Shown: positions 18,961 through 39,860 of the stretch, piece by piece
How positions within the stretch are numbered: the first letter of the stretch is position 1
Layout: each line of letters opens with the position of its first letter
DNA from: Pohlia nutans
Taxonomy: Eukaryota; Streptophyta; Bryopsida; Bryales; Mniaceae
Assembly (NCBI GenBank): GCA_022496805.1
Contig: CM040092.1
Span: 18,804,113-18,868,112 of the forward strand
Reading direction: 5' to 3'
Length of the DNA stretch: 64,000 nucleotides
Translations under genes and position numbers: made by a program
Notes under the pieces: generated by a model
Told to the model about the DNA's origin: nothing
Databases searched by the model: none
The model's input: the letters and a program-made list of their open reading frames with translations, nothing else

Positions 18961-21274
18961 TCAGATCAGGGCATTTTCAACAAAATATATACACGAATTC
19001 TGATGGGAAATGCAAGTTTTTCAACTACAGCTCTGTGTATTTCTAAACTTGGATGTTATTCCCTTTAGAAATGTAAGCTTTTCAACTACAACGTAGTATA
19101 TTTCGTGTCTCCACGTATCATGGTTGACATGCCTGACAGCATGCATGTGAGTAATTGACTACAGTAATGGAGAATAAATGGACTCTAGAGTTAAATAGGC
19201 CCGGGGATTCGGTAAATTGTTGGAAATTACTTCGGCACTAAGTGGGCCCCATGTTATCCGCATCTTTTCTTGACATAGCCAAAATGCATGTGGTTATTCA
19301 TTTGGCTTGCACATGCAGAATGAGTTGAAAAATGGTTTCACTCAAGCCCACTTTTTCACTTGGATTTCCTAACTGAGGAATTCCATTACAAATGCTATAT
19401 CCAATGAATATATGTTGTGATTTTGTGCAAAATATATCAATCAATCACACATATGATTTGTGAATAAAATCTTATGTTTGGATTCCATATTTAGAAAAGT
19501 TTTCATTAGAAATGGTTGGTTCTAAATTAACACTATTTCATCAATTCGCACTTGAAACTGAAAAGTCAAGGGTTAGTAGAGTTATTTGCTAACTCATAGC
19601 TAGTGAAATCATTTTGCTGAAAAATAGACCGATTGTTAATTTGGTCCTCAATTTGAGATTTGGAACATGAAAAACTGCCATGATCATAGCAAGAAGGTTC
19701 TTTTGGTTAATCGAAGAATAGGAGTGTGAGTGTTCATGCTATGAATAGAAGCTTGAATACTATTCATGCAGTGAATAGTGTTTGGAAAATACAAACACAT
19801 TGTTCATGCTCCAAGAATGTGATAAATATAAAAATGAACTTATTGTTCATGAGTCCATAATTTTGGGAGCCCAACTTTTGTTACTAATTTATTTTGCCCT
19901 GTCAATTAGCGGATAACTCAAAAAATGCTCAAATTGAGGTCAAAGGAGCCTTTGTAGTTAGCGACTTAGCGGATAACTCTAGTTAAATTAGTAACGCATG
20001 ACAATGTAAAAAGGTACATCAATTATCCTATTTAGTTGGAGATGCACTAATTGTTTTATAATGACTATATTTTTTTATATAGAATGAATACTTTTACCAT
20101 ATATGTAACACTTGTTTCGTTAAAAGTCCACGTGCCATATAAAAAGTGCACATGCTGACATTTTGTACGTTTGAAGAAAGTATGATCATATTTTATCTAT
20201 AAAGTGTCAAAACTGAATGTACATTACATAAAAAATATTTGATTTACTTTTTACTTTTACTTCTAACAATTTTCTTTTATCTCCCTAATTTGATATGATC
20301 TATCCTCGTCATTGATAGAAATCTAATTGATTTCTATTTTTACTTTTTTCATGCAAAGTCAATGGAAAATACATATTTTATTTTATATTTATACCTCTAA
20401 AAGTTACTTTTACCTCTAAATAGTTACTTTACCTCTGATTTGATAAGATCTGTCTTTGTTATTTATAAAAATCTAATTGATTCCTATCTTGACTTTTCAT
20501 GCATCCTAATCATATGCAAAGTCTATAAAAAGAATTTAGATACTAATTACTGTCATTTGAAAGTCAATGGTTAAAGATGGATTTGACTTTCACTTTTTTA
20601 CTTTTGATAAAATTTAATCTATTTTACGTTACAAAACATCCAACTTAATTCCTACTTTTATCTTTTTCTTCAATTTTAATGAAAAAAGATGAAATTCCAA
20701 AAAATCTCAAATTTACTGGTTGATCTACTAGTAATTTTTTTAATATATCTCGGATTGGCAAATGGATTGCGCCAATAGTTTCAAGAAGCCAAAACTAGCC
20801 TAAGAGAATCCCGCCCTTACTAAAAGTAACGTATCTCATCAATTTCTCCTCGTTTTGACTTTTTACTGTTGACAAAATTATACAATGCACATTATTATGG
20901 TAGAAATTATGTCAGCAGTAAAAGGACATAGTATAATTTGTCTAATTGATGTGCAAAGATGTCATAATTATTAAATAGGTAGACATCCGTTATTTATTTT
21001 ACCAATTTTTTTCTAAATATGTTACTAATTTAGGATAAATAGGGAAAAGGGTTTGAAATCTATAAAAATAAATTTAATTTTTAGTGCTTTAAATACTACT
21101 TGCCGAATTAGGCCTTCACATTCTTAAAAAGGCCGCCTCATCTACCTTTAGTAGTGCCTTTAGTTTGTCCCTTTGACTCAGCATTTGGTTGGCGTGAATT
21201 TAGTCCCATCCACGGCACACCAAAGCCAAGGCCATGGTGATGTGTGATGTCATATCGAAGTCACATCACCAAAG
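18961..21274. other. AT-rich intergenic spacer
   Basis: No gene or conserved frame seen. AT-rich with many short repeats. One possible TIR element is listed separately at 19574-19984. Confidence 0.35.
19574..19984. mobile_element. possible short TIR element
   Basis: The left end, TAGTAGAGTTATTTGCTAAC, is an imperfect inverted match to the right end, which reads TTAGCGGATAACTCTAG. A second internal copy of AGCGGATAACTC is near 19908. No coding capacity; borders and target duplication are unclear. Confidence 0.35.
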
Positions 21275-21687
21275 TAGAGCGGAAGACGAGAGGAAGGATG
21301 GCGTGCTGAGCTCCGCGATGTGCGGTGTGGAGGGGCTGAGAGGAGGATGGCAGCTCTGCTGCTTGTGCAGGAAGGTTGTGAGTGAGGATGTATTGTAGAA
21401 TGTGCAGGTAAAGCTATACACAGACAAGCAGGCTGGGCTGCAAGAACAAACATGGAGAAAGTGCGCAAGATCAAATCGTGCACGGCGCAGAAGAGTTGGA
21501 TCTCGCCGAGTGGTGAATCGTTGGCACCACACCGAGCATTTGCAGATCTAAAGGTCACTTGTGTAAGAGGCAGGCTGGGCTGCCTCTAGTTCTGTGGATA
21601 GCTCCAACGGCACAGTATGCACTACTCCTCCTCATAACATCCTCACCATGCCCTCTCTCTCTCCACACCGCAGCCAACAGATCAACA

Positions 21688-24600
21688 ATGACTGAACCAA
21701 AATCAAGCTTCCGTTTCAGGCTTGCCTTTCTCTCCATTATGTTGTACATGCTGAGTTACACCCATTGCTTGAGGTTTCATGCTTTAGAACGTATAAACAC
21801 TACTGCACATCATCTAGATCTAGATCTGCACTCGTTTACCACTGCTTGCCGTACTTCTAGAGCTAACTCCTTGCTAAATATGACAAAGATCTGTGGTCCC
21901 AAGCAGTACCTTCAAACACCATTCCATCAACAGGACAAAGCTACTAGCACCAAGAACTTCGAACCCCAGCAGGAGAATCCAACAAAGCCGAACGGCTTGC
22001 CCAAAATCAGAGGAAGCGCCAACCGCATTTGCAACAACCCAAATCCAAGTCTGCATTGCCTGCAAACACAGTTAAGCAATCAAAACCTTTCAAATATCTC
22101 TTTTCTTATTGTTGATTGCTTTCTGTACAAACATGTAGATAATGGACAGCATCGACAAAGCACCATCAAAACTTACGGCTGGACAGCTTCGAAATGCGAA
22201 GATAGTAGCTGTATCGCATCGCAAACGACAACACTCACCTCGGATGGAGCAAGAATGCAAGCCCAAGAAAGCGCTGTGGGAGCACGAATGCAGTACAAAA
22301 CGGAGCCTTGCGACAGGAAACAACAGAGCTTCAACAAAACGTGCAAGCAGCAAAGGAAGAAGCTAGAGCAAGCAAGCATACCTGCAGGATTCGTCACCAA
22401 TCAACAGATCCGCCAATTGACAACAGAACAAAGCTTGCTGCTGCAGCAACTGGACGATGCTGTTGTCAGCCACACCGACATGAAGCAAATTCAAAACAGA
22501 TTGTCAGGACAGAAGCATGGAACGCAAATTTACATGCATGCTTACTACTCTCTGCTATGGAAGTCCATGCCAACAAACAAGCTGCATAATAACTGTATCG
22601 TTGGATACTGCTTGGGACAGCACCAACAAACCCTAGAATCGCACCGGACAGCCCCTAGCCCAATAATTCAACACCGTATCAACACAAGCACTGAGCACAG
22701 AGACAAGAGAAAGTACCAGCAATTAGGGGTTAATTTCCGAAGGCCCACACTCTCCTGCACGGCCAAACCCCAATTCTATTTCGGAGTACAGAAGATGCAG
22801 TCCCCGCAGCTCCGAATGACCTTCTCCAACAAAAACTTCAGAGCCTGCTCAAATGCTGTCGGCCACAACCTGAAGAAAACTAACCCAGATTCAGCCACTC
22901 GGAGTCGCCAGCCAGAATCGTCAAACGCTCGGAGTGGCCAGCACCGCTCAAAGTCGCCAGCTGCGAACTCTCCCGATCGCAGCAGAATCACCAGCCCTGA
23001 ACTCTCCCGAATGCGCCTGAAGCTCTGCTCGCTGGAGACGCAACGTGAGCACACGCCATTGACTGCATTGAGACAGCAGCCGGCTCCAAGCAGGCTGAGA
23101 AGAAATAACCCCAAGGAAGAGAAATCAACACTGCTGCAACCCCTTCCGCGGCCTTTGTTGCGTTACGTCGACGACCTCCCGCAGCCCTCGCTGCGACACC
23201 TCAACCCCATCCGCGGCCTTAGCGAGCACAACGTGGATATCTCCGCGCCCCCACATCACCTCGAAAGGTCAGCCAACCGCCCCCTAAGAAAGAGTCACAG
23301 GTACAAACGCTTCCCCGCCAATTACCCTAGAAGCTGCGGCAGAGGCACTCTCTGCAGTTGCGTACGCAGCTCGGCGTCATGCTCAAAGTCGTTGGCTCCA
23401 ACAAATCGGCCAAATACAAACAGGCAGATCGTACGCATGAAGATCGTGCGAGTGAGACAAGAGGAAACGCCAAAAAACCCTCCAGTCCTCCCACGAAAAT
23501 CACCAAAATTATACGACCGCCAATGCCATGACTCCGGCGACAACTGGAAGGGCTACAGCAATTTGACCAAGTTCGCCCGCAATTCGGCCAAAGTCCACGA
23601 AGGCCCACATGATCGCCCCCCATGCGAACCACAGGTGGAGGAAAACGACGCTCGAGGCAAAGATAGAATTACCGTAAAGACAAAATTCGACACGGTAAAC
23701 ACCAGCTGCCTCAAAATTACATCCAACAGACACAAGCCGCACCACCACATACTTAAGCAGCACAGGTTCACACACTCATTTCATCTTCTTGCTCCCCTCG
23801 TGAGTTCTCTGCTCCACTCTTCTTCCAGTCTCCACAGCTTTGCCGTTCTCTGCCAAACCATTGTAGCTGCCACCTCCCAGCCCATTGATAGCCTGTGCTC
23901 CTTCTCCCTGCTACATGAGTTAAGATACCTAAACATTGATCATTTTGTTTCTTGCCTCCCAACGTCTATCCTGTCCTCCCCTCATTTCTTCTCTATCCCC
24001 CCACAACACACACGCAGTAGACAGATTCCTCCCTCTCTGAAGTTTGTAATTAGTGATACCCACACTGGAGCTACAATCTTGGTCACAACACGCAACTGGA
24101 GCAGTACTGCGGAGCCAACTGAAGAAGGGACGTCGCATCAACATTCAGCCAGCCCAAGGAAAATCACAGTAAAGAGAAGAAGGAGCAGTTTTCGAAGTTC
24201 TGAAGCAGGGAGGCACCTCAACAGACCGTCCACGCAGCCATCAACAACTAGCACGCAAGGTTCTCCTCCCTCTACTAACTCTCATCTTAGGACCTGCAGT
24301 AACCATGTTAGTTCATTGAATTACTATGCTCAAAATTACCAGGCTTATTATGCAAGCCGTACCATGTGTCTCCCTAATCACTTGAAAGAGGATAAGGCCT
24401 TGGTGTGCATGAGTATTTCTTGCATGACCAATCTCTCTAAAACCCTTTGTTTGCATGATCTATGTACGTTCTGTTTGCATAACTATTTAAACGTCAATTG
24501 CTACAATTATGATATAATTGTAAACCTTTTAGCCTTTAGTTATGCTCACACTCTTAAGGTGTGGACATATTATTGGAAGAAAGAAATGTATGTCCATGTT

Positions 24601-26532
24601 AACCCTCCGAGTTTGAATGTTTGGATGGTATTAGACAAAACTCTAAATAACCAGACTTTTAATATGTATAGTATGATTCGTAACAACCATTCTTGTATGT
24701 ATGCTTTATATGACATTGATCACTTTAAAAAAATTACCACACTTAAATCCATTTACAATACTTCTACCTCCTTCTCAATGATTATGCTCCACTCGGCCCC
24801 ACAAATTAAGTTGTGGGGAGGAGTAAATCATGAGATTAAAAGGAGAAATTCTACTTCTCATAAAAACCATAGCATTTTAACACAAAACTTTTTCATTTTC
24901 AGCATGTCTCAACGACCCACGAGCTCCACATCATCTCAGAGATACAAAGACAAACTTACAGCTTTAGATAATGACACGGATACCGAAATGTTTGTAACTC
25001 AAAAACGTAATTCTTCTTCTACTCAAGGTGCTTCAAGCCAAAAGAAGGCTAAGGGCAAATCAAACCCCGGTTTGAAACGCCCTCCCTTTTGGCTTGGGTA
25101 CCAAGCTATGAATTGGACGAATCGTGGAAAAGGTTACCCCATGGATAGTAATGAACCTGTAGCAACGCTTGTTAAGAACGGGATGAGAGAAAAGGAAGCT
25201 AAGGAATGTCAATCAGCATCAATTTCCTTCCCGTTTGTCATACAAGAGGAATGGCCCAACTCTCGGGAGGATGGCAAGGATGGCCAACACTTCAACCTCA
25301 CACAGATTCCATCTGATGTTGAGGTTGATAAGTATGGTTTCTCCTTTGATTACCAAATCGCCATCATCTTCGAGATGGAGGAAAAGGAATGGGAAAAAGA
25401 AATTATAATGTCATTAGTAGAGGAGAGACTCAAAGAAATGAACATTATGCTTGGGGATATCATTGGGGAACCCATTGCCATCATGTGCTACCACAAATCC
25501 ACTAAGTGGAGCGGGGTTATCAAGTTGCACTTGAAAAACCCCGAAATTGATGGAATGGGCCTTCTCCAAGGATTAAGACCATTCATCCTCCAACTTGACA
25601 ATGAGAAGTTCAAGAGAGGAAAAATTTGTAAAACTTACGACTCTCTTGCTTTGAACAACCTCTTGTCAGTCAAAGTAACAAGTGCAGAACTAGAGCACAA
25701 GGAATGGTACGAACTCTATGAGAAAATACTAGTGGAGAGTTTCAAAAGAGGGATGGAGTATGAGATAACAAATGTTCAAAAAAAGAAAGAAAACCTCTTT
25801 GCTTGGGTAGTAGCTGCATCTCCCGAACAAGCTCAAAAGATGAAAGAACATAAAATCACATACAACCAGGAGATCTTAGAGGGGAAACTAGCGGATCGTG
25901 CAAACACAAAGGATGACATTGCAAGGAAAAACGCACTCATCCTTATCGCCAAGAATCTCAACAAAACGAAGAGTGTTGAAGAAATAGAAGCAAGCATCAA
26001 AACTTACATGGGACCAAGAAATGCAGTGAGCTTCTTCTTCAAGCGTGATGAGAAGAATGGTAAACACTTAGGCTCATGCAACATCCAATGTCTCAATGCT
26101 ACAGTGTACAAAACGTTTGTCAAGAAGTCTGCAAAACTTCTTGGCAAACATGTAGAGTTTACTGCACATCCTAGGAGTCTCGACGGTGCAAACCCTCCCA
26201 ATGCTGCTGAACTCACAAGGCTAGGGTTCAGTGATGTGAACACTGCCCTAGCAAATACCATAGAAGCAATAGGAAATTCCGCAAAAGAGACACCCCAAAA
26301 TGACATCATGAAAGAAATAGTCGGAATTAGAGAAGAAATCTCTACCATGAAGAAAGAACTCCGCAGTGAACAACAACAAATCGCAGAGAAAGCAGTGGAG
26401 AAGTCATCATCAAGCCTCACAGCGCAAATGACAATCCTTAGAAGACAACTTGCTAGTACTATGCAAGCCTTGGACGAGAAAAGTGGCAACACTCTAGCCA
26501 TTGAAGATGGCAACATGGACACGTCAAACTGA
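21688..26532 (+). CDS. LINE ORF1 (possible 1614-residue protein, or 542 residues from 24904)
   Basis: An open frame runs without a stop from 21559 to the TGA at 26530-26532. The first ATG is at 21688; an internal ATG at 24904 (MSQRPTSS) would give 542 residues and directly follows a splice-acceptor-like TTTTCATTTTCAG. Residues after 24904 look like a structured nucleic-acid-binding ORF1 protein: a basic, Ser-rich head with QKKAKGKSN, a middle alpha/beta region, and a C-terminal coiled coil (IREEISTMKKELRSEQQQ onward). The ~1070 residues before 24904 match no domain I know: Gln/Asn-, Ser- and Arg-rich, partly proline-rich. So long a frame is unlikely by chance. Whether it is translated in full, spliced, or partly 5' UTR cannot be told from sequence. 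Confidence 0.7.
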   Translation: MTEPKSSFRFRLAFLSIMLYMLSYTHCLRFHALERINTTAHHLDLDLHSFTTACRTSRANSLLNMTKICGPKQYLQTPFHQQDKATSTKNFEPQQENPTKPNGLPKIRGSANRICNNPNPSLHCLQTQLSNQNLSNISFLIVDCFLYKHVDNGQHRQSTIKTYGWTASKCEDSSCIASQTTTLTSDGARMQAQESAVGARMQYKTEPCDRKQQSFNKTCKQQRKKLEQASIPAGFVTNQQIRQLTTEQSLLLQQLDDAVVSHTDMKQIQNRLSGQKHGTQIYMHAYYSLLWKSMPTNKLHNNCIVGYCLGQHQQTLESHRTAPSPIIQHRINTSTEHRDKRKYQQLGVNFRRPTLSCTAKPQFYFGVQKMQSPQLRMTFSNKNFRACSNAVGHNLKKTNPDSATRSRQPESSNARSGQHRSKSPAANSPDRSRITSPELSRMRLKLCSLETQREHTPLTALRQQPAPSRLRRNNPKEEKSTLLQPLPRPLLRYVDDLPQPSLRHLNPIRGLSEHNVDISAPPHHLERSANRPLRKSHRYKRFPANYPRSCGRGTLCSCVRSSASCSKSLAPTNRPNTNRQIVRMKIVRVRQEETPKNPPVLPRKSPKLYDRQCHDSGDNWKGYSNLTKFARNSAKVHEGPHDRPPCEPQVEENDARGKDRITVKTKFDTVNTSCLKITSNRHKPHHHILKQHRFTHSFHLLAPLVSSLLHSSSSLHSFAVLCQTIVAATSQPIDSLCSFSLLHELRYLNIDHFVSCLPTSILSSPHFFSIPPQHTRSRQIPPSLKFVISDTHTGATILVTTRNWSSTAEPTEEGTSHQHSASPRKITVKRRRSSFRSSEAGRHLNRPSTQPSTTSTQGSPPSTNSHLRTCSNHVSSLNYYAQNYQAYYASRTMCLPNHLKEDKALVCMSISCMTNLSKTLCLHDLCTFCLHNYLNVNCYNYDIIVNLLAFSYAHTLKVWTYYWKKEMYVHVNPPSLNVWMVLDKTLNNQTFNMYSMIRNNHSCMYALYDIDHFKKITTLKSIYNTSTSFSMIMLHSAPQIKLWGGVNHEIKRRNSTSHKNHSILTQNFFIFSMSQRPTSSTSSQRYKDKLTALDNDTDTEMFVTQKRNSSSTQGASSQKKAKGKSNPGLKRPPFWLGYQAMNWTNRGKGYPMDSNEPVATLVKNGMREKEAKECQSASISFPFVIQEEWPNSREDGKDGQHFNLTQIPSDVEVDKYGFSFDYQIAIIFEMEEKEWEKEIIMSLVEERLKEMNIMLGDIIGEPIAIMCYHKSTKWSGVIKLHLKNPEIDGMGLLQGLRPFILQLDNEKFKRGKICKTYDSLALNNLLSVKVTSAELEHKEWYELYEKILVESFKRGMEYEITNVQKKKENLFAWVVAASPEQAQKMKEHKITYNQEILEGKLADRANTKDDIARKNALILIAKNLNKTKSVEEIEASIKTYMGPRNAVSFFFKRDEKNGKHLGSCNIQCLNATVYKTFVKKSAKLLGKHVEFTAHPRSLDGANPPNAAELTRLGFSDVNTALANTIEAIGNSAKETPQNDIMKEIVGIREEISTMKKELRSEQQQIAEKAVEKSSSSLTAQMTILRRQLASTMQALDEKSGNTLAIEDGNMDTSN

Positions 26533-29500
26533 TTTGGACAAACAACGCAGCGGTAAATCTACGAGTATATTTATATACTAAGAAAAAAGTAATAATAAAA
26601 ATAAAAAAAATAAAAATAAAAAAACACAAAAACAAACATATATTTATAGTATCTATATATGCTATAAAATATATTAAAAAGAAACACAAAATAAAAAACA
26701 AAACGTCACAAAAAAACACCACCAAAAACTACCTCAAAAATAAAAACAAAAAAATAAAAATAAAAATAAAGAAAAAAACAAAAACATATAAACAAAACAA
26801 AAATTCATCTAAACAAAAAAGGACATCCATCAATCCATACCATAAAATAAAATTCAATCACCCAAAAAACCACCAAAACATAAACCCTAAGTGGCCTCGG
26901 CCTACCGGCCTCGGCCAAAAAAGAGATAGATCAATACCACTTCACAAAACTAATACACCCAAAAAGATATACAAAAACACCCCTTCGAATACCCATCTAA
27001 ATAATAATAATAATAACAATCGTAATTACAAAAATCGTATTCACCACAATCACATAAAACATACCACTAACAAAACAAATAAAAAGGCCTCAAAACCCCT
27101 CAGAAAAAACAAAAAACACCTTCCTAACAAAAACAAAACTAACATAAAACCAAACTTCATCAAGTACCACATCCCAAAACTACTACTACTACTACTCTCT
27201 GGTGACATTGAAACTAACCCGGGACCAATGCCAAACTTACTTAAAACACATCCTACATCACATAAAAATAGAAACAAAACATATTTTATACCATGCACAA
27301 TAAAACTACATCCAGAGTACCAAGATTTAGCAAAAACGTTTGCTCCCTGCTTAAAAACAACACACCCAAACCACCTAAAAGCATCCACAGACTACCCACA
27401 CCTCTCAAAATACATACTTGAAAACCAACACCACTCACCTCCGCGCATGTTATATGCACTCATTACCACGCTAAGTCCATTACTAGAATCATGCGACCAC
27501 CAATTAATACAAATACCCGACCCAGACTGGACAACAATACTTCTTGAGAAAATGGCACTTCTTCAAAACCCCCCCGAAAGACACATCTTAAACTCACACC
27601 CATACATCAAATTTAAAAACAACAACCAAAATCTAATTAACCCCTCCAATACCATACATAAACAACTTTATGATTTTATCAAACAAAACACTAACCCACC
27701 AAGCTTACAAACACTAACAAACAAATTCCCATTCCTACCCGTAAATTTACTAACAGAATCTCTCAAATGCAATGATCCTATAGATGAATATGCACACCCA
27801 CCTCAACTACCTAATATACCATTACCACAAATCCAAGAGACACAAACAATAAACCACAACACACACATTATTACATGGAACGCGTCATCATTAAACACTG
27901 CCCTACCAAGCCTACAAAACCTAATCTCGAACACCACAACAAATCCAACAATTATCACAATACAAGAAACCAAACTAACCGCAACAAAATCAACAAGATA
28001 TATACAAAACCTATTCCCACAATACAAACTAATCTTCAACAACACACACGCCTTAACAAGATGCATGCAACAAAGAATGCCATATACCCCTGCTAGAGGC
28101 GGACTCCTCACTCTAATAAATAACAAATATGCATACCCGGGAAACATCACCAAAATACCTACCCCGGTTGAAATCTCACCATATTTACAAATTATACAAA
28201 TAAATAATGCACCACTTCAACCATGGCTAATACTACATATGTACATGCCCTCCCACTTAGAAGATATTCAATACATTACAATAATACAACAACAAATAGA
28301 ACAACAAATTATAGCACACCCAAACCACACATACATATTATGTGGCGATTTTAACAGAGACATAGCCCTTATCGGCAGACAAAATGAATTCAACATAACA
28401 CCCCCACAAATAGAAGACATAGAATGGCGTACATTCACAGACACTCTAGATTTAACCTACATACCAACTAATAGCACATTCACCAGACAAGGTGGACAAA
28501 ATTACACTCAAACAAGTTTAATAGATGGATACTACATTAAAACTCCCAATAATACATTATATACCTCAACCACAAATCATGACTACAACCTCAACTCAGA
28601 CCATTCACCAGTCACCTTACAAATACCACCAAACACACTTCTAGCTCGCCCCACTCAACCAAAAGCAAATAAACCACCAAGGATTCTAAACCCCATCCCA
28701 CAAGATAACATTGAAAAATTCAAAACATTATTTTTCGAAGAAAACTCACTTCAAATAAACGAACTCACTACAATATTGATGAATGAACAACTAACAGACA
28801 ACCGATGGCAAACATCTTGTACAAAATTAGACCACTTAATACAACAAATATCAGAAAAAATTCAAGAAACATGTAGTGCCTCACCCCTACCTTCACTAAC
28901 ACACCGCACAGCTCAACAAGGAGGTTTTTTGCCAAGAAAACTCCAAAAAAAATGGAAAATACACCTATCCACCTACCACTTAATCAGAAAAGCAATACAC
29001 ATAACAAAAACCACACCAGACTGGCACAACCACCCAATAATAGAAGAATTAAAAAACCATAGCCATATTATCATACCACCACCTCCTAACCCAGAATCAA
29101 ATCCACAAGAATGGATTAAAACTTTAGCAGAACTAGGTAAAAACGCAAACAAGCAAGCACGTAAAATTACCACAAAGTACACACAAGAATGCATTAAAAA
29201 AGCTATCACAAAATACAGACAACTATATGAAAAAAGCCCCAAGAAGATAAATAAAAAAGTCTTCAAAAACCATGAAACACCACCATTAGATTGCATTATG
29301 GATAGAAACAACAACATACTAACTAGCCCAGACGACATAGCAAATGAAATTTATATTCAACAATCAATTAGTAATAGACCTACAGTCCCAACATGTTACT
29401 ACCAACCGGAGCACCCATCTAATTGCACATGTGGAGTCAAACAATACCCATGGCATGACCTAGAGGGATTTATAATAGATAAAAGAGGAGACCCTCACAC

Positions 29501-31565
29501 ATCACTACATAAATACTTCGACCAAGAAACATACGACTTATGTTTAAAACACCTATCCAATAATAAAACACCAGGCCCGGATAAAATTCCAAACTCAATA
29601 TTAAAATATATGCCTGATAGCTTTCACAAACTTCTATTCTTATTTTTCACCCATTGTTATAAACAAAAGAAAATCCCAGCATCATGGAAAACAAGTTTAA
29701 CCATACTTTTGTACAAAAAAGGAGACCCATCACTACTACCAAACCACAGACCTATAGCACTTGCAAACACAATTTACAAACTATTTACTAGCACACTAAC
29801 ACTAATATTATCAGCATATGGTGAAAAGTTTCAAATACTACACGACAGCCAAGAAGGATTTAGAGCAGAAAGAAGTACATCTAGACAGCTACAACTACTT
29901 ATAGCAGCCCTAGAAGACGCCAGATTTACAAACCAAAACATATACCTTCTTTACATAGATTTCAAAAATGCATTTGGCTCCCTTGACCACGCTAGACTAT
30001 TAGCTATAATGAAAGACCTTGGATATCCAACAGATGCAGTAACACTAATCGGAAATATCTACTCACACTCTACCACTATATTCACCGGAGAATACTTCGG
30101 CAAAACAAAACCAATACCCATTCAAAAAGGCACCATCCAAGGAGATACACTAAGCCCATACTTATTTCTGATATTCCTTGAACCACTACTCAGATGGCTA
30201 CAAAGAGGAAATAACGGGTACACATTTGGTACATCGAAATTTACCATTAGCTCTGCAGCATACGCAGACGACCTAGCAGCTATAACAAATAATCTCCAGT
30301 CACTACAAACACAATTAAACAAACTAGATAAATTCTGTGAATGGGCTGGAATGGATCTAGGGGTACAAAAATGTGCCATCACTGGATGTCCCAACAAACC
30401 CAAACTAAATCCTGAAAATTTTAAAACCCTAATACAAAACCACAACATATCTTATAGAAATCAGCCAATACCAGTTCTACACCAAAACGAACCATATGTA
30501 TACTTGGGCATCCAACTAGTACCCTCACTAAAATGGAAACTCCAAACGCACATCACCACAAACAAAATAATAGACCAATGTAAACAACTAACCAATTGCC
30601 CTGCAACAATTAAACAAAAAATCAGCATGGTTGACACCGTCATTAGAGCAGGCATTGCATACAGTTTTTATGCAGTTCCATATTCACTACCAACCATTAA
30701 AAAACTAGACAAAAAAATTATAGGTATCCAAAAAACAATATGCGGACTACCAAAATGCACAGCAAACATAATAACCCAATTACCTCACGAACTCTTTGGT
30801 CTTGAAGCCTTCTCACTAAAAAATGCATACTTACGATGCATTGGTGAACAACTTCGAAATGCACTTAACGACCAAGGGAGACTAGGTATAATATACAAAG
30901 GTCTTATACAGCACATATTAGCAAAATTTGGAGGCGCGGAAGAAATCTCAAGAATAACACAATATGATTGTATTAATTCACCAACCATACGAACATTATT
31001 TCTACTAAAAAATGCTGGAGGAATTCACCTCAAAAGTACAAATGAAAATTTCCTACTACATATGACAGAATTGGAACGAGAATGGCGAGCACAATCCACA
31101 ATTGAACTTCCACTTCTCGACCCCGATCGTTCACTCAAACTTTTACACAAATTACTAATCCATAACATATACGAAATAAAACACATCACCCTTCCCAACG
31201 GAACAACCCTTATGACGCCAAAAAACTTCAAAACATACTACAAAACACCAACCAAACTAGAGAGAAGTGTACTTCAAATAGCTGAAAAAATATTTTGCTA
31301 CCCAAGCTGCACACCAAATTGTCCAAATCCATGTGCACGACACCCTCCCGCCCGGATGCTAAAACCGAGATACATCACATACAATCAAAATTTACTACCT
31401 AGAGCACCAGAAACCCCACCTCAACCCCCAGCCCCACATCAACACCTCCACCCAAACCCACCCCCCAACGTCAAAAACAATCCACTAAGACATCCCATCA
31501 ACATAATACTAGACCATAAAACAAAAACCACAAAAGATAAATACAAAATAACAAAAAAAATATAA
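26505..31565 (+). CDS. LINE ORF2: 2A peptide, APE endonuclease, reverse transcriptase
   Basis: The frame is open from 26505, overlapping the end of ORF1 by 28 nt, but has no ATG until 27228. The intervening ~240 codons are Lys/Asn-rich and end in LLLLLLSGDIETNPGP (27180-27227), an exact match to the 2A consensus DxExNPGP, directly before Met 27228. Counting from that Met: the APE-type endonuclease has ITWNASSLN (Asn218), QETK (Glu247), CGDFNRD (Asp374) and SDHSPV (His459). The reverse transcriptase has TPGPDKIP, the GDPSLLPNHRPIAL block, LLYIDFKNAFGSL, KGTIQGDTLSPYLF and YADD (1012-1015). Translation is probably by -1 shift or reinitiation after ORF1, with 2A releasing the downstream enzyme. 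The frame ends at 31563-31565, just after an A8 tract. Confidence 0.9.
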   Translation, partial: RWQHGHVKLIWTNNAAVNLRVYLYTKKKVIIKIKKIKIKKHKNKHIFIVSIYAIKYIKKKHKIKNKTSQKNTTKNYLKNKNKKIKIKIKKKTKTYKQNKNSSKQKRTSINPYHKIKFNHPKNHQNINPKWPRPTGLGQKRDRSIPLHKTNTPKKIYKNTPSNTHLNNNNNNNRNYKNRIHHNHIKHTTNKTNKKASKPLRKNKKHLPNKNKTNIKPNFIKYHIPKLLLLLLSGDIETNPGPMPNLLKTHPTSHKNRNKTYFIPCTIKLHPEYQDLAKTFAPCLKTTHPNHLKASTDYPHLSKYILENQHHSPPRMLYALITTLSPLLESCDHQLIQIPDPDWTTILLEKMALLQNPPERHILNSHPYIKFKNNNQNLINPSNTIHKQLYDFIKQNTNPPSLQTLTNKFPFLPVNLLTESLKCNDPIDEYAHPPQLPNIPLPQIQETQTINHNTHIITWNASSLNTALPSLQNLISNTTTNPTIITIQETKLTATKSTRYIQNLFPQYKLIFNNTHALTRCMQQRMPYTPARGGLLTLINNKYAYPGNITKIPTPVEISPYLQIIQINNAPLQPWLILHMYMPSHLEDIQYITIIQQQIEQQIIAHPNHTYILCGDFNRDIALIGRQNEFNITPPQIEDIEWRTFTDTLDLTYIPTNSTFTRQGGQNYTQTSLIDGYYIKTPNNTLYTSTTNHDYNLNSDHSPVTLQIPPNTLLARPTQPKANKPPRILNPIPQDNIEKFKTLFFEENSLQINELTTILMNEQLTDNRWQTSCTKLDHLIQQISEKIQETCSASPLPSLTHRTAQQGGFLPRKLQKKWKIHLSTYHLIRKAIHITKTTPDWHNHPIIEELKNHSHIIIPPPPNPESNPQEWIKTLAELGKNANKQARKITTKYTQECIKKAITKYRQLYEKSPKKINKKVFKNHETPPLDCIMDRNNNILTSPDDIANEIYIQQSISNRPTVPTCYYQPEHPSNCTCGVKQYPWHDLEGFIIDKRGDPHTSLHKYFDQETYDLCLKHLSNNKTPGPDKIPNSILKYMPDSFHKLLFLFFTHCYKQKKIPASWKTSLTILLYKKGDPSLLPNHRPIALANTIYKLFTSTLTLILSAYGEKFQILHDSQEGFRAERSTSRQLQLLIAALEDARFTNQNIYLLYIDFKNAFGSLDHARLLAIMKDLGYPTDAVTLIGNIYSHSTTIFTGEYFGKTKPIPIQKGTIQGDTLSPYLFLIFLEPLLRWLQRGNNGYTFGTSKFTISSAAYADDLAAITNNLQSLQTQLNKLDKFCEWAGMDLGVQKCAITGCPNKPKLNPENFKTLIQNHNISYRNQPIPVLHQNEPYVYLGIQLVPSLKWKLQTHITTNKIIDQCKQLTNCPATIKQKISMVDTVIRAGIAYSFYAVPYSLPTIKKLDKKIIGIQKTICGLPKCTANIITQLPHELFGLEAFSLKNAYLRCIGEQLRNALNDQGRLGIIYKGLIQHILAKFGGAEEISRITQYDCINSPTIRTLFLLKNAGGIHLKSTNENFLLHMTELEREWRAQSTIELPLLDPDRSLKLLHKLLIHNIYEIKHITLPNGTTLMTPKNFKTYYKTPTKLERSVLQIAEKIFCYPSCTPNCPNPCARHPPARMLKPRYITYNQNLLPRAPETPPQPPAPHQHLHPNPPPNVKNNPLRHPINIILDHKTKTTKDKYKITKKI
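27180..27230 (+). other. 2A ribosome-skipping peptide signal
   Basis: The codons read LLLLLLSGDIETNPGP followed by Met. DIETNPGP fits the 2A motif D(V/I)ExNPGP, at which ribosomes skip the Gly-Pro bond. The hydrophobic leucine run before it resembles upstream contexts of active 2A sequences. Such motifs are known in trypanosome and some animal non-LTR retrotransposons at ORF N-termini. Confidence 0.85.
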
Positions 31566-34239
31566 CACATACCTATGTCAATGGACTCTCCAAAACAACA
31601 TCACATACAACAAATGGTTGCCACAAAGAGAAATCTTCCCCTTCAACCACCCAACAATCATAACACACAACATCGAACTACTAACAGAATACTACACAAA
31701 ATTACAACACAACCACTACCAAAAAATTATTAACACACAATTCAATCCTGAACAAAGCAGAGATGCGAGATTCATCCCGCCACCCACATCCACCCCGCTC
31801 ACACATATACACATACAAGAATGCAACCCGGAGAGAGACATTATTTGCAATTACGATACCATACAAATAAATAATGAACAAACCCACCTATATGAAAATA
31901 CCGGTAGACACCTTATCACTATATCAACCACGAGACTAAAATGGTTATGGCAACAATATAATAAAGCAATTTATAGCTCACACGGCCTAGTACCACAAAC
32001 ACAATCATTTGAAAAAGAAGTAATATGGCTCTATCAAAGATACAACCATAAAATCCCCAAAAAAGACCCACTAAAAGCAGCACAACACACCCTACCAACA
32101 AGCATTCTTGACTCCATTACTACCTCCTTTAATATCTCCCACTCTTACTTCTCATCACCAATAACATGTTCCACACAAATTTCAGAATTCTACTCTCCCT
32201 TTGCAAGAGATAAAATCTTTGGATCACTCGGTACCGCCTTTTCATACAAATGGAAAGGCATAGGCTACGCCCACCCACATAATGAAGAAACAGCCCAACA
32301 AGCAATTCACTGGGCACGACTGGCAGCCAAAACCGACCCAAATACCATCACTATACTAGTAATACCAGATACAGATTGGTACAAAAAAATTTCCCCACAC
32401 ACGGGGCCCTTCCCAGACACCCATATAATTGCCCACTTCGCCGCAGATTCCATCACATATGTAGAACCAACAACCCCACAAGAACTCCATAAACCAAAGA
32501 CAGAACCCCTTGCAATCCGCGTCCTATGCATTCATCATCAAGATCACAACATTGGCACACCACACCAATTAAATACAATTAAAGCAGCAATTGAAAACTT
32601 ACAAATTCCACAATATCACATACAAATTGCTCCAAATACCCCCCACAACACACCGGTCAATAAAAATAAAAAATGGAATAAACTCATATACCCACCTTCC
32701 ATCAACCCAACCATTTTAAATACGCCACCGCTACCAAACTTTGTGACAAACACCACACCTAAATTCCAACCGCAACATAGCTACTATACCGATGGATCCT
32801 TCTTTCCCCCTGAACAAGCTCCCGATGGACATTGGAAAAAAGAAAAAGCCGGGTACGGGATATACAACCCTACAAAAGCTGACATGCAAATATCAGCAAG
32901 ACTACCAGGCCTACAAACATGTTTTAGAGCTGAACTAATGGCTATCCATAGAACACTTAGATTGATCACTACTAAATACCCAGACGAACCGGCACATATA
33001 TTTACAGACTGCCTCAACTGCCTATACAATCTAAACACAAACATCAAACATCCAACCACACACAACAATCACGCGGATAAAACCATACTAACAAGCATGG
33101 TAGAAATGTTAAAAACTCGTACTCAACCCACCACATTCCACAAAGTCAAAGCACATATAAACATCAAAGGCAACGAACAAGCGGATAAACTTGCAAAAAT
33201 GGGAGCCATAAAAGAATACTTCAAAGCCACAAGTTCATATGAACTTGCACATACTACACCATTTTATTTTCAAAAAGATATATGGCCAGGACCTATAAAA
33301 CGGCCAGATAAAGGCCCCGTCAGATGTCTCGAAACATACCTAACTAAATACGACCAAGAAAATAACTTTGAAGAAATGGCAATCGAATTTCCAAACATTA
33401 GCAAATGGACCATGAACCCAAACATCGATAACGAACTATCCAACACATTTTGGTCTAATCCAACAATCACTGACTCACAAAAAACAATCATATTAAAACT
33501 CCGTACCGGCCAATACATGGGTAATGCTAGAAAACAACTATTTTTTGGAAGAGAAAGATTCCCCTCAATAACATGTTCTATCTGCAACTCTGCAGATGCA
33601 GACACATGGCTACATGCACTTCTAAAATGTAGTCATCACCACATTCACGCCATTAGAGTCAAAAGACACAACAAAGCAGTTTGGGAACTAAGGAAACTAA
33701 TCCTCTCATCACAAAAATCTAGATGTTACACCCTCATGAACGCAGGAACATTCAACAATAACCCCCAAGAAAATACAGTACCCCCATGGCTACTACCATG
33801 TACATGTCAACAACAAAGATGCCATTGCAACGCTAGATTTAAACCAGACATCCTTTGTGTAAAAGAACTCCCATACAAGAATGACCCACCATCACATCCA
33901 TCAGACAACCTCACAATTCAATTTATTGAATTTACATATTGTAATGACAGATTCCCACAAACAACAATAGATATCAAAAATCAAAAATACCAACCACTTA
34001 TTAATAATATTATTAATTTAGGATGGAAAGTTGACCCACTCATAGTCATCACGGCAGGAGCTAGAGGCACAACACATATCCCATCAATGAAACTCCTCGA
34101 AACAAAATTTAAACTACCAGAAACCGCCATTAAACACACATTCAAAGAAATAAACACCATTGCTATACATCATGCCGGATCAATTATTCTACATAAAAGA
34201 AAAATAGAAAATAATCAACCACTCCCAATAGATTACTGA
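31552..34239 (+). CDS. LINE ORF3: RNase H, CCHC finger, restriction-like endonuclease
   Basis: The frame opens at 31552, inside the A-run that ends ORF2, and has no good ATG near its start; position 31618 is TTG. Residues are numbered from 31618. RNase H: YTDGS (389-393), Glu443 in RAELMAIH, TDC (463-465), GNEQADKLA around 520-526. CCHC finger: C-x2-C-x9-H-x4-C beginning at Cys653. Restriction-like nuclease: RVKRHN, KPDIL (742-746), Glu771 in IEFTY, and K-x2-KY (787-791), then GWKV and GARGTT. This order (finger, then KPD...E...K..KY) is that of R2/Dualen-type RLE domains. The protein is probably the C-terminal continuation of ORF2, reached by frameshifting on the A8 tract or separated by a one-base indel. 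Confidence 0.87.
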   Translation, partial: QKKYNTYLCQWTLQNNITYNKWLPQREIFPFNHPTIITHNIELLTEYYTKLQHNHYQKIINTQFNPEQSRDARFIPPPTSTPLTHIHIQECNPERDIICNYDTIQINNEQTHLYENTGRHLITISTTRLKWLWQQYNKAIYSSHGLVPQTQSFEKEVIWLYQRYNHKIPKKDPLKAAQHTLPTSILDSITTSFNISHSYFSSPITCSTQISEFYSPFARDKIFGSLGTAFSYKWKGIGYAHPHNEETAQQAIHWARLAAKTDPNTITILVIPDTDWYKKISPHTGPFPDTHIIAHFAADSITYVEPTTPQELHKPKTEPLAIRVLCIHHQDHNIGTPHQLNTIKAAIENLQIPQYHIQIAPNTPHNTPVNKNKKWNKLIYPPSINPTILNTPPLPNFVTNTTPKFQPQHSYYTDGSFFPPEQAPDGHWKKEKAGYGIYNPTKADMQISARLPGLQTCFRAELMAIHRTLRLITTKYPDEPAHIFTDCLNCLYNLNTNIKHPTTHNNHADKTILTSMVEMLKTRTQPTTFHKVKAHINIKGNEQADKLAKMGAIKEYFKATSSYELAHTTPFYFQKDIWPGPIKRPDKGPVRCLETYLTKYDQENNFEEMAIEFPNISKWTMNPNIDNELSNTFWSNPTITDSQKTIILKLRTGQYMGNARKQLFFGRERFPSITCSICNSADADTWLHALLKCSHHHIHAIRVKRHNKAVWELRKLILSSQKSRCYTLMNAGTFNNNPQENTVPPWLLPCTCQQQRCHCNARFKPDILCVKELPYKNDPPSHPSDNLTIQFIEFTYCNDRFPQTTIDIKNQKYQPLINNIINLGWKVDPLIVITAGARGTTHIPSMKLLETKFKLPETAIKHTFKEINTIAIHHAGSIILHKRKIENNQPLPIDY

Positions 34240-34744
34240 TTAAGGCAAAACAAATCATACAAAACGAGGGTAATGATGAAGACCACTATTTATTCCTTTT
34301 TTAATTTTTGCTTAGCTCACAGTACACACTTGTCTCAGGTATATGGGACGGGGCCGGTTGGTTGGTACAAATTTTCCTGCTTATGAATAATTCACTAGCA
34401 GCACCAAGTCGTGTATATCACAATAAACGCTCAAACGGACTCCACGGGAATCGAACCCGGACCGTACAATTGTAACATAAACACCTTTCTCCAACCAACC
34501 TTGGAACCATGACTTGGCGACCTCCAGCAAAACAAACACCAATTTATACCCGTGCAAGTTATAATCTAACGTATTTTACTAGTGTTACTAGTATTTATCT
34601 CTAGTCACTAAAGTGTCTATTCTCGAAAGAGGTGAGTAGTCTTGTACCAATGGACCTTTGTCTGGTGGGCATTGGCTCATTGTCAAGACGAACAGACACT
34701 TTATTCACGCCGGCCTCAAAAGAGGCCCGGTGTTCATATCTATC
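34240..34744 (+). other. LINE 3' UTR with terminal hairpin and antisense tRNA-like B box
   Basis: Non-coding tail after the ORF3 stop. On the minus strand it contains GGTTCGATTCC (34447-34457) inside a good T-arm-like stem (CCGGG/CCCGTGG), a pol III B-box-like element; no complete tRNA cloverleaf can be drawn. The last ~60 bp include TTATTCACGCCGG and a stable hairpin, both echoed in the fragment at 14.9-15.0 kb, suggesting a conserved 3' end recognised by the reverse transcriptase. Confidence 0.6.
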
Positions 34745-34757
34745 TAGAGCGGAAGAC

Positions 34758-35069
34758 CCAATCAAGAAATATGAAAGGATCGAATTTTGAGTGAAGGGAC
34801 CAAATATGGAGTGGACCATGACATTTGGAGAGACACGTTAGACGGTGTAAATTTGAAGTGCATGGCAACCATTTGACGAGGGCCTCTAACATTTGGAGCG
34901 TGGCCATTGGGGCAACCAAAACAACAAGAGCCAATGCCGTTGAGGGCTCATTAAAGAGCCTCATCGGAGATGCTCTCATCCGCTTCCCATTCTCTTAAAG
35001 AGTTACAATTGAATTTTAAATAATTACTAATATTCGCCATACAAAAAATTAACGAAAGTCTAACTTTAA
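34758..35069. other. intergenic flank, nothing recognised
   Basis: Sequence between the LINE target duplication and the next TTAA element. No gene or repeat recognised. Confidence 0.3.
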
Positions 35070-36191
35070 CCCTTAAACGTCAAGAGGATCTTAGACGGGC
35101 AACCAAAGGAATAAAATAAACTGATAGAGCTGTCTCCAACAATAGCTCCTTGAGTAATGTGAACAACCAATGAGAATTCCTCAAATCCTCTATAAACAAT
35201 GAATAAAGTGAACAATGTCACTCCAAAAATAAATTTAAAAAATAAAATGAGATTCCGACTCTGCAGTGAGCTCTGCAATTATGGATTAAAAATTTATTAA
35301 AATTAATTAACGTTAATTTTTTTAATTAATTAATTAAATTAATTATTTATTTAAAAAATAAAAATAAAACATTTTGGAACAGTGTTGGCAGCACTGGAAT
35401 ACATCAAGATCTTAACCCTTTGACGCACCAACGTTCATATTTTGGACACTAGATGAATTTTGACGCGTTCCTTCACCACATACACCGATGTTTTTCATCC
35501 ATCCAAAATTCTCTTGATTCTTGTGCTAGTTGACTACCATTTGTACAATATGGATCTTCAAAATAAAATAATGTGAATTTTTGAAAAATAACAAAAGTGG
35601 TTTATGTCAAGTTTCATTCTTAGTTCTAAAAGTGAGACCTTAAACATGATTTTCTATAATAAGTAGAATCAAATAATGGAAACCATACCATCTTGTAGTG
35701 CATGTTATTCCAATTTCATTAAAAAAAATTTGATTTTTTTGTGTTAATTTTAGATTTCAAATTGAATTTCAAGAGAAACCTTGCAAAATTAATTAAAAAA
35801 TATTAATAATAAATATGATGAATCCATCCGTACAGATGTTATCTTCACATTGACATTTACAGCTTTGCTTTGTACATCAACTCCATTTTTGTTTTTCATC
35901 AAACATTTTTTATTTTATAATGAATCTTTGAAAACGGTGTTGAATCGGGACGTTAAAGGGTTAAGCTGCTTGACTCCCTCCCCTTCCTCCTCTCCCGGCT
36001 CCCCTCCCTCCCCATCAATTCTCTTTACGATTTCCTTGGAATGTACAATTTACTACATCCGGCATAATTGCTAAATTCAGCCTCACATTTTCAAAGAACC
36101 AATCCATTTCAATTTTGGTTGAGAAAATCCACTTTTTTTTCTTTATTCTCTCAAAACAAGCCTTTGGGACTATTGTTTTGACATTTAAGGG
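35070..36191. mobile_element. TTAA-flanked element interrupted by a second one
   Basis: Outer element between TTAA 35066-35069 and TTAA 36192-36195, with ends CCCTTAAACGTCAAG and, inverted, TTGACATTTAAGGG. It belongs to the family of 5203-5586 and 62863-63243 (shared CTAAATTCAGCCTC-like and GAGAAAATCCACTTTTT blocks). A 540 bp-family element (35416-35960) is inserted inside it at a TTAA. Its right end lies just before the start of homology between the PAL A and PAL B promoters. Confidence 0.8.
35416..35960. mobile_element. nested TTAA-flanked element, 540 bp family
   Basis: 545 bp between TTAA 35412-35415 and 35961-35964. Ends are CCCTTTGACGCACC and, inverted, GGGACGTTAAAGGG. Same family as 4209-4748 and 55401-55941. 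Subterminal near-palindrome around TTCATATTTTGGAC. Confidence 0.82.
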
Positions 36192-36195
36192 TTAA

Positions 36196-36983
36196 GACGA
36201 ACGCAACCTCAATGACAAAGAATTTACAGAGAAACATTAACTGCGACCTTGCTTTCGGCACTAGTCCACAAATCCACACGGTCAAGCTCACCAAAGCTCT
36301 ACCTTTTTGCTCTCCCTTGTCAACAAAACCTCAAAGCACTAAATTCCAGTCCCAAGCCGTTGCCCTGAGTGACACTTCCCTGTTAAAAGCGTTGGTGTCA
36401 ACAATGGGGTCAAAAAGGAGACTCCACGTTGATAAATAACAGGCGAGCGTGACGTCTTCTTGGACCCCATTCAACAACTCCCCTGGTCAAACGGACCCAA
36501 TCAATAGTACAGATTGATTCCACTCCTCATATAAATGCACACCGTGGCCGTCCAGAATCAACATCTCAGTTCCAGCCTTCCAGTGACTGTTCTACACACA
36601 CCTCCAGCTCTGGACGCTCACCTGAATCAACTGGAACACCGAGGACTACATCTGGAACCTGATCATTGATTCTCATATTCGCCAATATTTAGCTCCTTCA
36701 ACTTCTTGTGCAGATTGAACCACTTTTAGCTCATCACAATTCTACCATCCCTTGCTACCTACACATATCCATTTCGGTCATCCACGACGAATCACAGACT
36801 GTCGTGTAGAATTGCGAGTAGTTTAGCTCACACTTCTAGCTCTGTGCTGTTCTACATAGATTGATTGATCTCAGGGCGTCATTCACTCAGGAATAGCTGA
36901 AGTAAAAGTTCGGGTCTAAACAGGCATCAGTTCAGAAACTGAATTGGCACGCTCCCAATTACTGAAGGTATATATATAATTCA
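36196..36983 (+). promoter_or_regulatory. PAL copy B promoter and 5' leader
   Basis: TATA box (TATAAAT) at 36530-36536 and the CCAATCAATAG..CAGATTG block at 36496-36518, both at the same relative positions as in PAL A. Homology to the PAL A promoter starts near 36268 (CACAAATCCACACGGTCAAG) and is clear but much lower than in the coding region. The leader ends GGTATATATATAATTCA just before the ATG. Confidence 0.7.
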
Positions 36984-39182
36984 ATGGCGCCCCCAGCAGC
37001 GATTCCCATCATGGACGATTCCGCTGCTCTTTACATGAAGAAGCAGAAGCTGTCCGATCAGGCCATGATGTTGAACTGCAATGGCGCATCACCACAATCC
37101 GCAGCTGCGGACCCTCTCAACTGGGCCAAGACGGCGGCCAAATTGCAAGGCAATCATCTGGACGAGGTGAAGCAGATGGTGGCCACCTTCTTCGACTCCA
37201 CGGAAGTGGCCATCGAGGGCGTCAACCTCACCGTGGGCCAAGTCACGGCCATCGCGCGCAGACCTGCGGTGAACGTGGTGCTGGACGCCGCCAACGCCAA
37301 GGCGCGCGTGGACGAGTCGTCCAACTGGGTGCTCACCAAGATCATGAACGGCGGGGACATCTACGGCGTCACCACGGGATTCGGCGCCACGTCCCATCGC
37401 CGCACGCAGCAAGGCGTGGAGCTCCAGCGCGAGCTGATCCGCTTCCTCAACGCCGGAGTGCTGGTGAAGGGCCACTGCCTGCCCGCCGAGACCACCCGGG
37501 CCGCCATGCTGGTGCGCACCAACACGTTGATGCAGGGCTACTCCGGCATCCGCTGGGAGATTCTGGAAGCCATGGAGAAGCTTTTGAATGCGCACGTGAC
37601 GCCCAAGCTGCCCCTGCGCGGCACCGTCACGGCTTCCGGAGACCTGGTGCCCCTGTCGTACATCGCGGGCCTTCTCACGGCCAGGCCCAATTCCAGGGCC
37701 GTCACCGAAGATGGGCGCGAGGTGTCTGCGCTGGAGGGGTTGCGCATGGCGGGCGTGGAGAAGGCGTTCGAGCTGCAGCCCAAGGAGGGGCTGGCGCTGG
37801 TGAACGGCACGGCCGTGGGCTCGGCGTTGGCATCCACCGTGTGCTTCGACGCCAATGTGTTGGCTCTCCTGGCCGAGGTGTTGTCGGCATTGTTCTGCGA
37901 AGTGATGCAAGGCAAGCCGGAGTTCGCGGACCCCCTGACGCACAAGCTGAAGCACCACCCGGGCCAGATGGAGGCGGCCGCCGTGATGGAGTGGCTGCTG
38001 GAGGGCAGCGACTTCATGAAGGCCGCGGCCAAGCTGAACGAGACGGATCCCCTGAAGAAGCCGAAGCAGGACCGGTACGCGCTGCGCACGTCCCCGCAAT
38101 GGTTGGGTCCCCAGATCGAGGTGATCCGCAGCGCCACGCACGCCATCGAGCGCGAGATCAACTCCGTGAACGACAACCCCATCATCGACGCGGCGCGCGG
38201 CATCGCCCTGCACGGGGGCAACTTCCAGGGCACGCCCATCGGCGTGTCCATGGACAACATGCGGCTGGCCGTGGCCGCCGTGGGCAAGCTCATGTTCGCG
38301 CAGTTCTCGGAGCTGGTGAACGACTACTACAACAACGGCTTGCCGTCCAACCTGAGCGGAGGACCCAACCCGAGCCTGGACTACGGCATGAAGGGCGCGG
38401 AGATCGCCATGGCGTCGTACCTGTCGGAGCTGAATTACCTGGCCAACCCGGTGACCACGCACGTGCAGAGCGCAGAGCAGCACAACCAGGATGTCAACTC
38501 GCTGGGCCTGGTGTCGGCCCGCAAGACCGAGGAGGCGGTGGAGATTCTGAAGCTGATGAGCTCCACGTTCTTGGTGGGGCTGTGCCAAGCCATCGACCTG
38601 CGGCATGTGGAGGAGACCATGCAGACGGCAGTGAAGCAAGTGGTGACGCAGGCGGCGAAGAAGACGCTGTTCATGGGCAAGGACGGCGCCCTGCTGCCGT
38701 CGCGGTTCTGCGAGAAGGACCTGCTGCTGGTGGTGGAGCGGCAGCCGGTGTTCAGCTACATCGACGACGCATCGTCGGAGACGTACCCTTTGATGGAGAA
38801 GCTGCGAGCAGTGCTGGTGAGCCACGCGCTGAAGCTGCACAAGGACGCGTCCGCTGCCGTGTTCGAGCAGATCCCGATGTTCGAGGCGGAGGTGCAAGAG
38901 CGGTTGCGCGTGGTGGTGCCGGTGGTGCGGGAAGCATACGACAACAAGGGGTTGTCTGCGGTGGGCAACAGGATCGAGGAGTGCAGGACATATCCATTGT
39001 ACAAGTTCGTGAGGGCGGAGCTGGGGACGCAATTGCTGTCGGGATTGCGGACGGTGTCGCCGGGGACGGAGATCCAGAAGGTGTTCGAGGCCATGTCGGA
39101 GGGCAAGCTGATCAAGCCTCTTCTGCAGTGCGTGGAGGGGTGGAACGGAGCTCCCGGACCTTTCCCCAAGCAGAGCCTGTGA
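36984..39182 (+). CDS. PAL: phenylalanine ammonia-lyase, copy B
   Basis: Deaminates phenylalanine to cinnamate. 732 residues, intronless, start ATG at 36984. All catalytic elements are as in copy A: MIO triad Ala217-Ser218-Gly219, Tyr127, Phe154. The protein differs from copy A only by Ala6 for Ser6; DNA differences are scattered silent changes, for example near 37701 (GTCACCGAAGATGGGCGC) and 38470-38520. Copy C shares every B-specific change that I checked. Copy B lies head-on to copy C, with 4.3 kb between their stop codons, forming the left arm of a large inverted repeat. Its promoter is diverged from A and C, so expression may differ although the enzyme is essentially the same. Confidence 0.97.
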
Positions 39183-39860
39183 GTGATGGACAGGAGTCAA
39201 TGTTCACAATTTTGATTCTAGATGGAACGGGGCAACTTTGTAAATATCCGGGGCCCTGATGTAGAAAACAGGGAACTGGTGCACATCTTAGAACAGCTGA
39301 ATTGGGCTGTGTAATGGAGTAGCGAGGTAGAGAGCATTCGAGGACAAGATGATTCGATTTGTAATGAGCGAAGCTCAATGTTGAATATCATTCTTTGAAC
39401 GCATTGTTCACACAATTTATGATCTTTCACGAGTAAGCCGTGCATTTTCAGAATGCTTGTGATCATGTTGCCTCATGTGTGCAATTGATTCGTTGTGAAC
39501 ATGTGATTGGTAGGCCTGTCCTGTCGCTGTATGGATGACTGTGCCTGGCCGATGAGAGCCTCCTCAGGAACACAGGGAATTGTCATTTGAATTGAAGCAA
39601 GAGTTTAAACTGACTGCAATGCAATTGGGAGGATTACGAAGTGCATAATTTCAATGGTGTCCAATGAATTATGTGGAATCGGCACTTGGCTTGGCTGGTT
39701 GTTGGATTGCAGGGAAATTGTTTTTGGTGGTGTCCTTCAAGTGGAGTTACATAATGAAATCCTTTACAGGATCCCTCGTACATGAGTTTCTGTTGCCCGA
39801 GGTTACTGTCACAATATTCCACCTGTGGGTTGAGCTCTTCCTATGGCAAGACTATCACCT
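39183..39860 (+). other. PAL copy B 3' flank (left arm of inverted repeat)
   Basis: The first ~440 bp after the stop match the PAL C 3' flank (inverted, 43060-43508) essentially exactly. Similarity then continues at lower level to about 39830, the right arm being interrupted by a MITE at 42550-42965. Confidence 0.75.

Follow-up and report, generated by a model that had tools for sequence, protein, structure and literature searches.

A 64,000-nucleotide stretch of the moss Pohlia nutans (GenBank assembly GCA_022496805.1, contig CM040092.1, forward-strand positions 18,804,113 to 18,868,112; hereafter the window) carries what is very probably a recently active 13.5-kb retrotransposon without long terminal repeats (non-LTR), of Dualen/RandI architecture, in a land plant and with pol as a single polyprotein. 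Comparison with other genomic copies set its limits at 21288–34744 on the forward strand (about 13.46 kb), on which all element features given below lie. The order in pol is a leader, a 2A motif, an APE-type endonuclease, reverse transcriptase (RT), a PCIF1-like domain, RNase H and an R2-type end made of linker, CCHC finger and restriction-like endonuclease (RLE). The initial annotation had placed the element at 28330–34239, a span that omits open reading frame 1 (ORF1) and most of the APE domain, and it overlooked the PCIF1-like fold, the 2A motif, the ORF1 overlap and the single pol frame.

ORF2 (27228–31565, 1445 aa) contains the APE and RT domains. The APE domain (27843–28637, aa 206–470) was recognized by domain profiles and by Pfam (PF03372, 28.3 bits, cut-off 24.5), and the active-site residues N218, E247, GDFN (D374, N376) and SDHSPV (D458, H459) are present where the initial annotation had claimed a full APE. 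Among aligned rows, N218 was kept in 38 of 38, E247 in 43 of 45 (D in the other two), D374 and N376 in 55 of 56, and D458 with H459 in all 61. The RT (29532–30767, aa 769–1180) was likewise found by profiles and by Pfam (PF00078, 100 bits); among solved structures, R2 was the closest, with 118.6 bits versus 70.6 for L1.

The second nuclease is located in ORF3 (31618–34239, 873 aa), which runs on from ORF2 in the family. The residues that had been described for its end, namely a CCHC finger, KPD, a glutamate and K-x2-KY, were confirmed as an R2-like linker with finger (33265–33630; C653-x2-C656-x9-H666-x4-C671) followed by the RLE (33835–34212, aa 740–865; D744, E771, K787 and K790). No Pfam model matched this finger/RLE region at E values up to 1. 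Structure prediction, suggested at the outset as a check for a PD-(D/E)xK site, gave an R2-like fold: residues 550–869 of the AlphaFold2 model of ORF3 (mean pLDDT 69.5) match R2 proteins, so the resemblance is not due to chance. The finger residues were kept in 64 (C653), 62 (C656), 64 (H666) and 62 (C671) of 64 aligned rows, and D744 in 59 of 59. Many algal members read E-x-K after PD, while the moss-element lineage reads E-x-T (T773), with a lysine retained in the next helix. The prediction that the ORF3 C-terminus is a second endonuclease of the PD-(D/E)xK type, C-terminal to the RT, is supported by the model and these residues.

RNase H (32770–33207, aa 385–530; PF00075, 53.7 bits) lies between the PCIF1-like domain and the R2-type end, with D392 kept in 66, E439 in 70, D464 in 66 and D523 in 65 of 71 rows, gaps counted. 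Its presence beside two endonucleases, which had been likened to the Dualen/RandI layout, is borne out by other proteins. Homologue searches yielded 40 proteins when run with ORF3 and 186 when run with the RT, of which 120 were listed, and domain profiles run on 158 homologues and the two window ORFs found the order APE, RT, PCIF1, RNase H, RLE in 17 single proteins; the E values of these profiles are not independent, since they were iterated on the same 160 sequences. Two further proteins (P0137, P0143) have APE, RT, RNase H and RLE with no PCIF1 match and are sister to the rest of the dual-nuclease group; the PCIF1-like domain was therefore probably gained inside this group.

In an RT tree of 98 rows, after 23 of 121 had been dropped for partial coverage, the window falls inside a clade of 80 rows (SH-aLRT 98). 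A tree of 34 rows gave a dual-nuclease clade of 23 with support of 96/93, outside which stand two APE-type rows (P0153, P0157), two R2 rows and seven others. Named members of the clade in the 98-row tree come from Parachlorella kessleri (P0069, P0111) and Pleodorina starrii (P0108). Three Globisporangium RT proteins (P0148–P0150), which we take to be Utopia, show an RLE profile match and no APE match; they fall outside the dual-nuclease clade in the 98-row tree, P0148 in the 34-row tree as well. The provisional assignment to Dualen/RandI rests on the architecture and on this RT clade with green-algal proteins, and a Dualen/RandI-like way of working is well supported. A bacterial or viral origin was rejected, as tblastn found no relative in viral or genomic contig collections in scans that used single proteins and thus find close relatives only. 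Some relatives carry additional Pfam domains: the PHD finger PF00628 in P0064, P0080, P0095, P0114 and P0122, PF00145 (presumably a cytosine methyltransferase) in P0114, and PF02099 (presumably Josephin) in P0065 and P0108.

The moss's own genome (697.8 Mb, 332 contigs) was scanned with ORF3, giving 6551 first-look candidates. At least 52 copies were scored, 18 of which, the window copy included, are at least 97% identical over the whole ORF3; other copies carry stop codons. The junction between ORF2 and ORF3 was scanned at 30 loci, 10 of them without a reading, and both lie in one frame in 18 of the 20 readable cases. The separate ORF2 and ORF3 of the initial annotation are thus true of the window and not of the family, and a programmed frameshift between them is disfavored by the same count. 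The junction is out of frame only in the window copy (L010) and in a twin on the same contig (L011). That twin (C8:18927581–18930199; L011, L049) shows 100% identity with the window copy across ORF3 and has the same frame break with its own 12-bp duplication; the lineage with the broken frame thus seems to have transposed not long ago, possibly with help in trans. At C16:25924216–25980758, four full units are arrayed head to tail at a period of 13,505 bp, with a fifth partial match ahead, and the units have an open frame of 2577 aa, the length of leader, ORF2 and ORF3 together. Another RT family also forms tandem arrays, mostly at 5,964-bp spacing (C17:13365624–13400743, C81, C110 and C312).

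Ratios of nonsynonymous to synonymous substitution (dN/dS, Nei–Gojobori) were calculated only versus the window copy, for copies of less than 97% identity with common ancestry, selected by their ORF3 score; the APE domain was covered by 15 of 20 fetched stretches. Every domain tested is under purifying selection, with dN/dS of 0.08 for APE (13 copies), 0.06 for part of the RT (9), 0.22 for PCIF1 (11), 0.11 for RNase H (10), 0.12 for the linker (11) and 0.08 for RLE (11). Selection appears to constrain the two nucleases to a comparable extent.

The window copy is flanked by a 13-bp target-site duplication (21275–21287, equal to 34745–34757), established by comparison of flanks. Nucleotide comparison of copies placed the 3′ end at an (ATCT)n tail (34734–34744) that varies in length among copies and follows a hairpin (34706–34734; folding z of −3.4 for 34640–34746). 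Of 20 stretches at the 5′ end, the nine with a 99% match served for the study of duplications, and three diverged and eight unmatched ones were left out. A first flank comparison gave fewer than 10 shared bases in 4 of 10 copies, and an additional target duplication in the C12a copy. With longer flanks and one corrected 3′ end, three of these four (C17b, C2a and C4) share at least 10; in C17b and C4 these bases are located about 40 nt more to the 5′ side, so that both copies have a longer 5′ end. In the longer-flank re-test, which took in neither C13 nor C12a, 10–13 bp were common to both flanks in 8/8 copies, window included, versus at least 10 bp in only 1 of 56 mismatched flank pairs (a poly-T run). 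When duplications were sought within the window only and before the ends had been placed, a single AT-rich 10-mer resulted. The nine target duplications are all different; the insertions are dispersed and not at a single ribosomal DNA (rDNA) site. A G precedes the duplication in 7/8 readable sites by eye in the printed flanks, which is a weak preference only.

The 5′ flank of the window copy with its duplication (21251–21287) is met again, variously shortened, where the C16 array units and the copies C13 and C12a begin (L012, L040, L056 and L050), and C17c likewise bears part of the C16x duplication. The pattern resembles 5′ transduction from source loci; should the recurring stretch instead belong to the element, the 13-bp duplication of the window copy would need another explanation. 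Rfam gave no match at E of 1 or below in window positions 20000–40000, and in four loci five weak matches, all under their gathering scores and none of them a ribozyme of the hepatitis delta virus type. A minus-strand stretch resembling a tRNA B box was noted at 34440–34470, in the 3′ untranslated region, where ARAGORN finds no tRNA.

The PCIF1-like domain (31849–32595, aa 78–326), located between RT and RNase H, was identified by Pfam and by predicted-structure matches. NPPF is the catalytic motif of PCIF1. In its place, the window and most near relatives have HPHN (21 rows) or HPHT (6), and the commonest other form is NPE- (17 rows). By column count, none of 89 aligned domains has the canonical [DNS]PP[FYW], with an inserted column that leaves the fourth position unsure. 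Since this column is unsure and the raw sequence of P0058 reads SPPF, catalytic activity is possible in a few members. The domain would most likely bind RNA, perhaps a capped 5′ end, rather than methylate it.

Upstream of pol, the ORF1 frame (21559–26532) is open over 1657 codons, with the first ATG near 21688. Its upstream part (21559–24903, 1115 codons) has no stop, where the two remaining forward frames have 54 and 60. The conserved part (25471–26487) comprises RRM-like folds (25471–26166) and a long coiled-coil-like helix (26299–26487). The best matches of this C-terminal part by AlphaFold2 and Foldseek were RRM proteins with low TM-scores; it has many homologues, and a similar end was seen in all eight inspected. 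Pol lies in the −1 frame relative to ORF1, and its leader (26505–27179, in the ORF2 frame) overlaps the end of ORF1 by 28 nt. The leader has about 240 codons with neither a stop nor an ATG, and a fully open frame was obtained in 0 of 2000 dinucleotide shuffles; the leaders of several genomic copies hold stops or ATGs.

Directly 5′ of the first in-frame ATG stands a 2A (StopGo) motif (27180–27227), the core of which, DIETNPGP, agrees with (D/G/C/N)(V/I)ExNPGP. NPGP is present in 13 of 20 fetched copies and was not found in the other seven; 12 of the 13 have the full core and one has K for E, and the residues upstream of NPGP vary among copies. The motif also occurs in homologue P0109, and a Q variant in P0054. 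The simplest reading is that translation would run through ORF1 into pol and be followed by 2A release, with reinitiation at pol as an admissible alternative.

Several observations weigh against a Dualen/RandI element with two maintained nucleases. By sequence alone, a small RLE-containing profile reaches R2 only at an E value of 1.4. E771 is a glutamate in only 48 of 57 rows, yet in 16/16 of the five-domain proteins, and K787 is a lysine in 41 of 56. The RT trees hold no named Dualen/RandI sequence. C13 is one of 10 copies with both ends and shows no duplication, and the window copy is itself frame-broken. Moreover, mean dS is uneven along the same copies (APE 0.65, RT part 0.54, PCIF1 0.16, RNase H 0.21, RLE 0.33). 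As the values differ threefold between the RT part and PCIF1, the copies may be mosaics and the dN/dS ratios are rough; mosaic copies or the choice by ORF3 score may account for the unevenness, which one history does not explain. Finally, grouping of the element with two moss L1 rows was not rejected (p = 0.245) when an approximately unbiased (AU) test was applied to an RT fragment of 192 columns.

This last result would suit an ordinary plant L1 with a non-nuclease zinc-binding tail, in which APE, RT and RNase H also occur (for RNase H, an excerpt of PMC4640811). The 98-row and 34-row trees contain no plant L1; in the fragment tree, a branch of 3.7 sets the two moss L1 rows apart, and they fall outside the group of the window. 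Their profile scores of 25–27 bits were obtained with fragments about 165 aa long and are not comparable with the 591 of the window for the whole RT. Such an L1 is very improbable, and the grounds for its rejection are fold and conservation and not the tree: the ORF3 C-terminus matches the R2 RLE fold, its residues are conserved and its dN/dS is as low as given above. The differing frames of ORF2 and ORF3 in the window could also suggest a chimera of two overlapping insertions, an explanation with next to no probability that is refuted by the 52 or more genomic ORF3 copies, the single 2577-aa frames of the array and the shared domain order of the 17 single proteins from other sources. A single cutter, with the RLE now a DNA-binding or target-holding module and APE making both cuts, or the reverse, is unlikely without being far-fetched. 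APE elements give dispersed insertions with duplications of 10–13 bp, as seen here, and the lysine of the algal E-x-K is a threonine (T773) in the moss-element lineage, but D744, E771 and K787 are kept, and RLE and APE have equally low dN/dS.

Under the two-nuclease Dualen/RandI reading, ribosomes would pass from ORF1 to pol either by shifting to the −1 frame or by reinitiating, after which 2A would shed the leader. RT would recognize the 3′ hairpin and tail and start target-primed reverse transcription at a nick made by one nuclease, be it APE or RLE, the other would cut the second strand 10–13 bp away, and RNase H would clear the RNA. A bolder and doubtful extension is that a captured cap adenosine methyltransferase has turned into a non-catalytic reader of the element's own capped 5′ end, so that one polyprotein, made in the manner of gag-pol by a frame change and 2A, would combine template choice, reverse transcription and both strand cuts.

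Elsewhere in the window, three long ORFs were observed at 9943–12189 (+), 36984–39182 (+) and 43509–45755 (−), each with a 703-aa ORF opposite. Pfam, run on the middle one, identified an aromatic amino acid lyase, which suggests a possible local PAL cluster.

In the open-licence literature, no report was found of a Dualen-type element in a land plant, of PCIF1 in a long interspersed nuclear element (LINE) or of 2A in a plant LINE. Dualen has been used as a link between RLE-type and APE-type LINEs (excerpt of PMC4640811). The old question of why an element retains two endonucleases, and which of them cuts the second strand, can be tested directly in a plant host with this family, which offers recent near-identical copies, selection on both active sites and clean duplications. 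The PCIF1-like domain gives a new hint as to how such elements might select their RNA, and 2A would here be a natural use of the motif in a plant genome; the hosts of 2A-bearing non-LTR elements named in an excerpt of PMC4981915 are not plants, and an excerpt of a 2026 survey (PMC12846837) reports no evidence of 2A in plant viruses.

Compared with known systems, the element shares a D(V/I)ExNPGP core in a LINE polyprotein with the 2A-bearing non-LTR elements of trypanosomes and sea urchin, and differs from PCIF1, a cap-specific adenosine-N6 methyltransferase, in its domain without the canonical motif. Unlike plant L1, which has no restriction-like endonuclease, it carries the RLE fold. Utopia and other RLE-only LINEs likewise match the RLE profile, in proteins without an APE match. 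With R2 it has in common the linker, CCHC finger and RLE fold and the nearest RT among solved structures, whereas APE, RNase H, the PCIF1-like domain and dispersed insertions instead of one rDNA site set it apart. Dualen/RandI elements of Chlamydomonas and other green algae, according to excerpts of the respective sources, likewise combine APE and a PD-(D/E)xK-type nuclease in one element (PMC3636483), have RNase H (PMC4640811) and end in a short tandem repeat, (ATT)n or (CTATTT)n, instead of poly(A) (PMC3747384). The present element agrees in having an APE with intact site N-terminal to RT, a predicted PD-(D/E)xK-type nuclease C-terminal to it, RNase H and a short-tandem-repeat 3′ tail. It differs from them in its land-plant host, its 13.5 kb, its ORF1 overlapping pol, its 2A and its (ATCT)n tail, a comparison that for the PCIF1-like domain, 2A and ORF1 does not extend to the founding Dualen.

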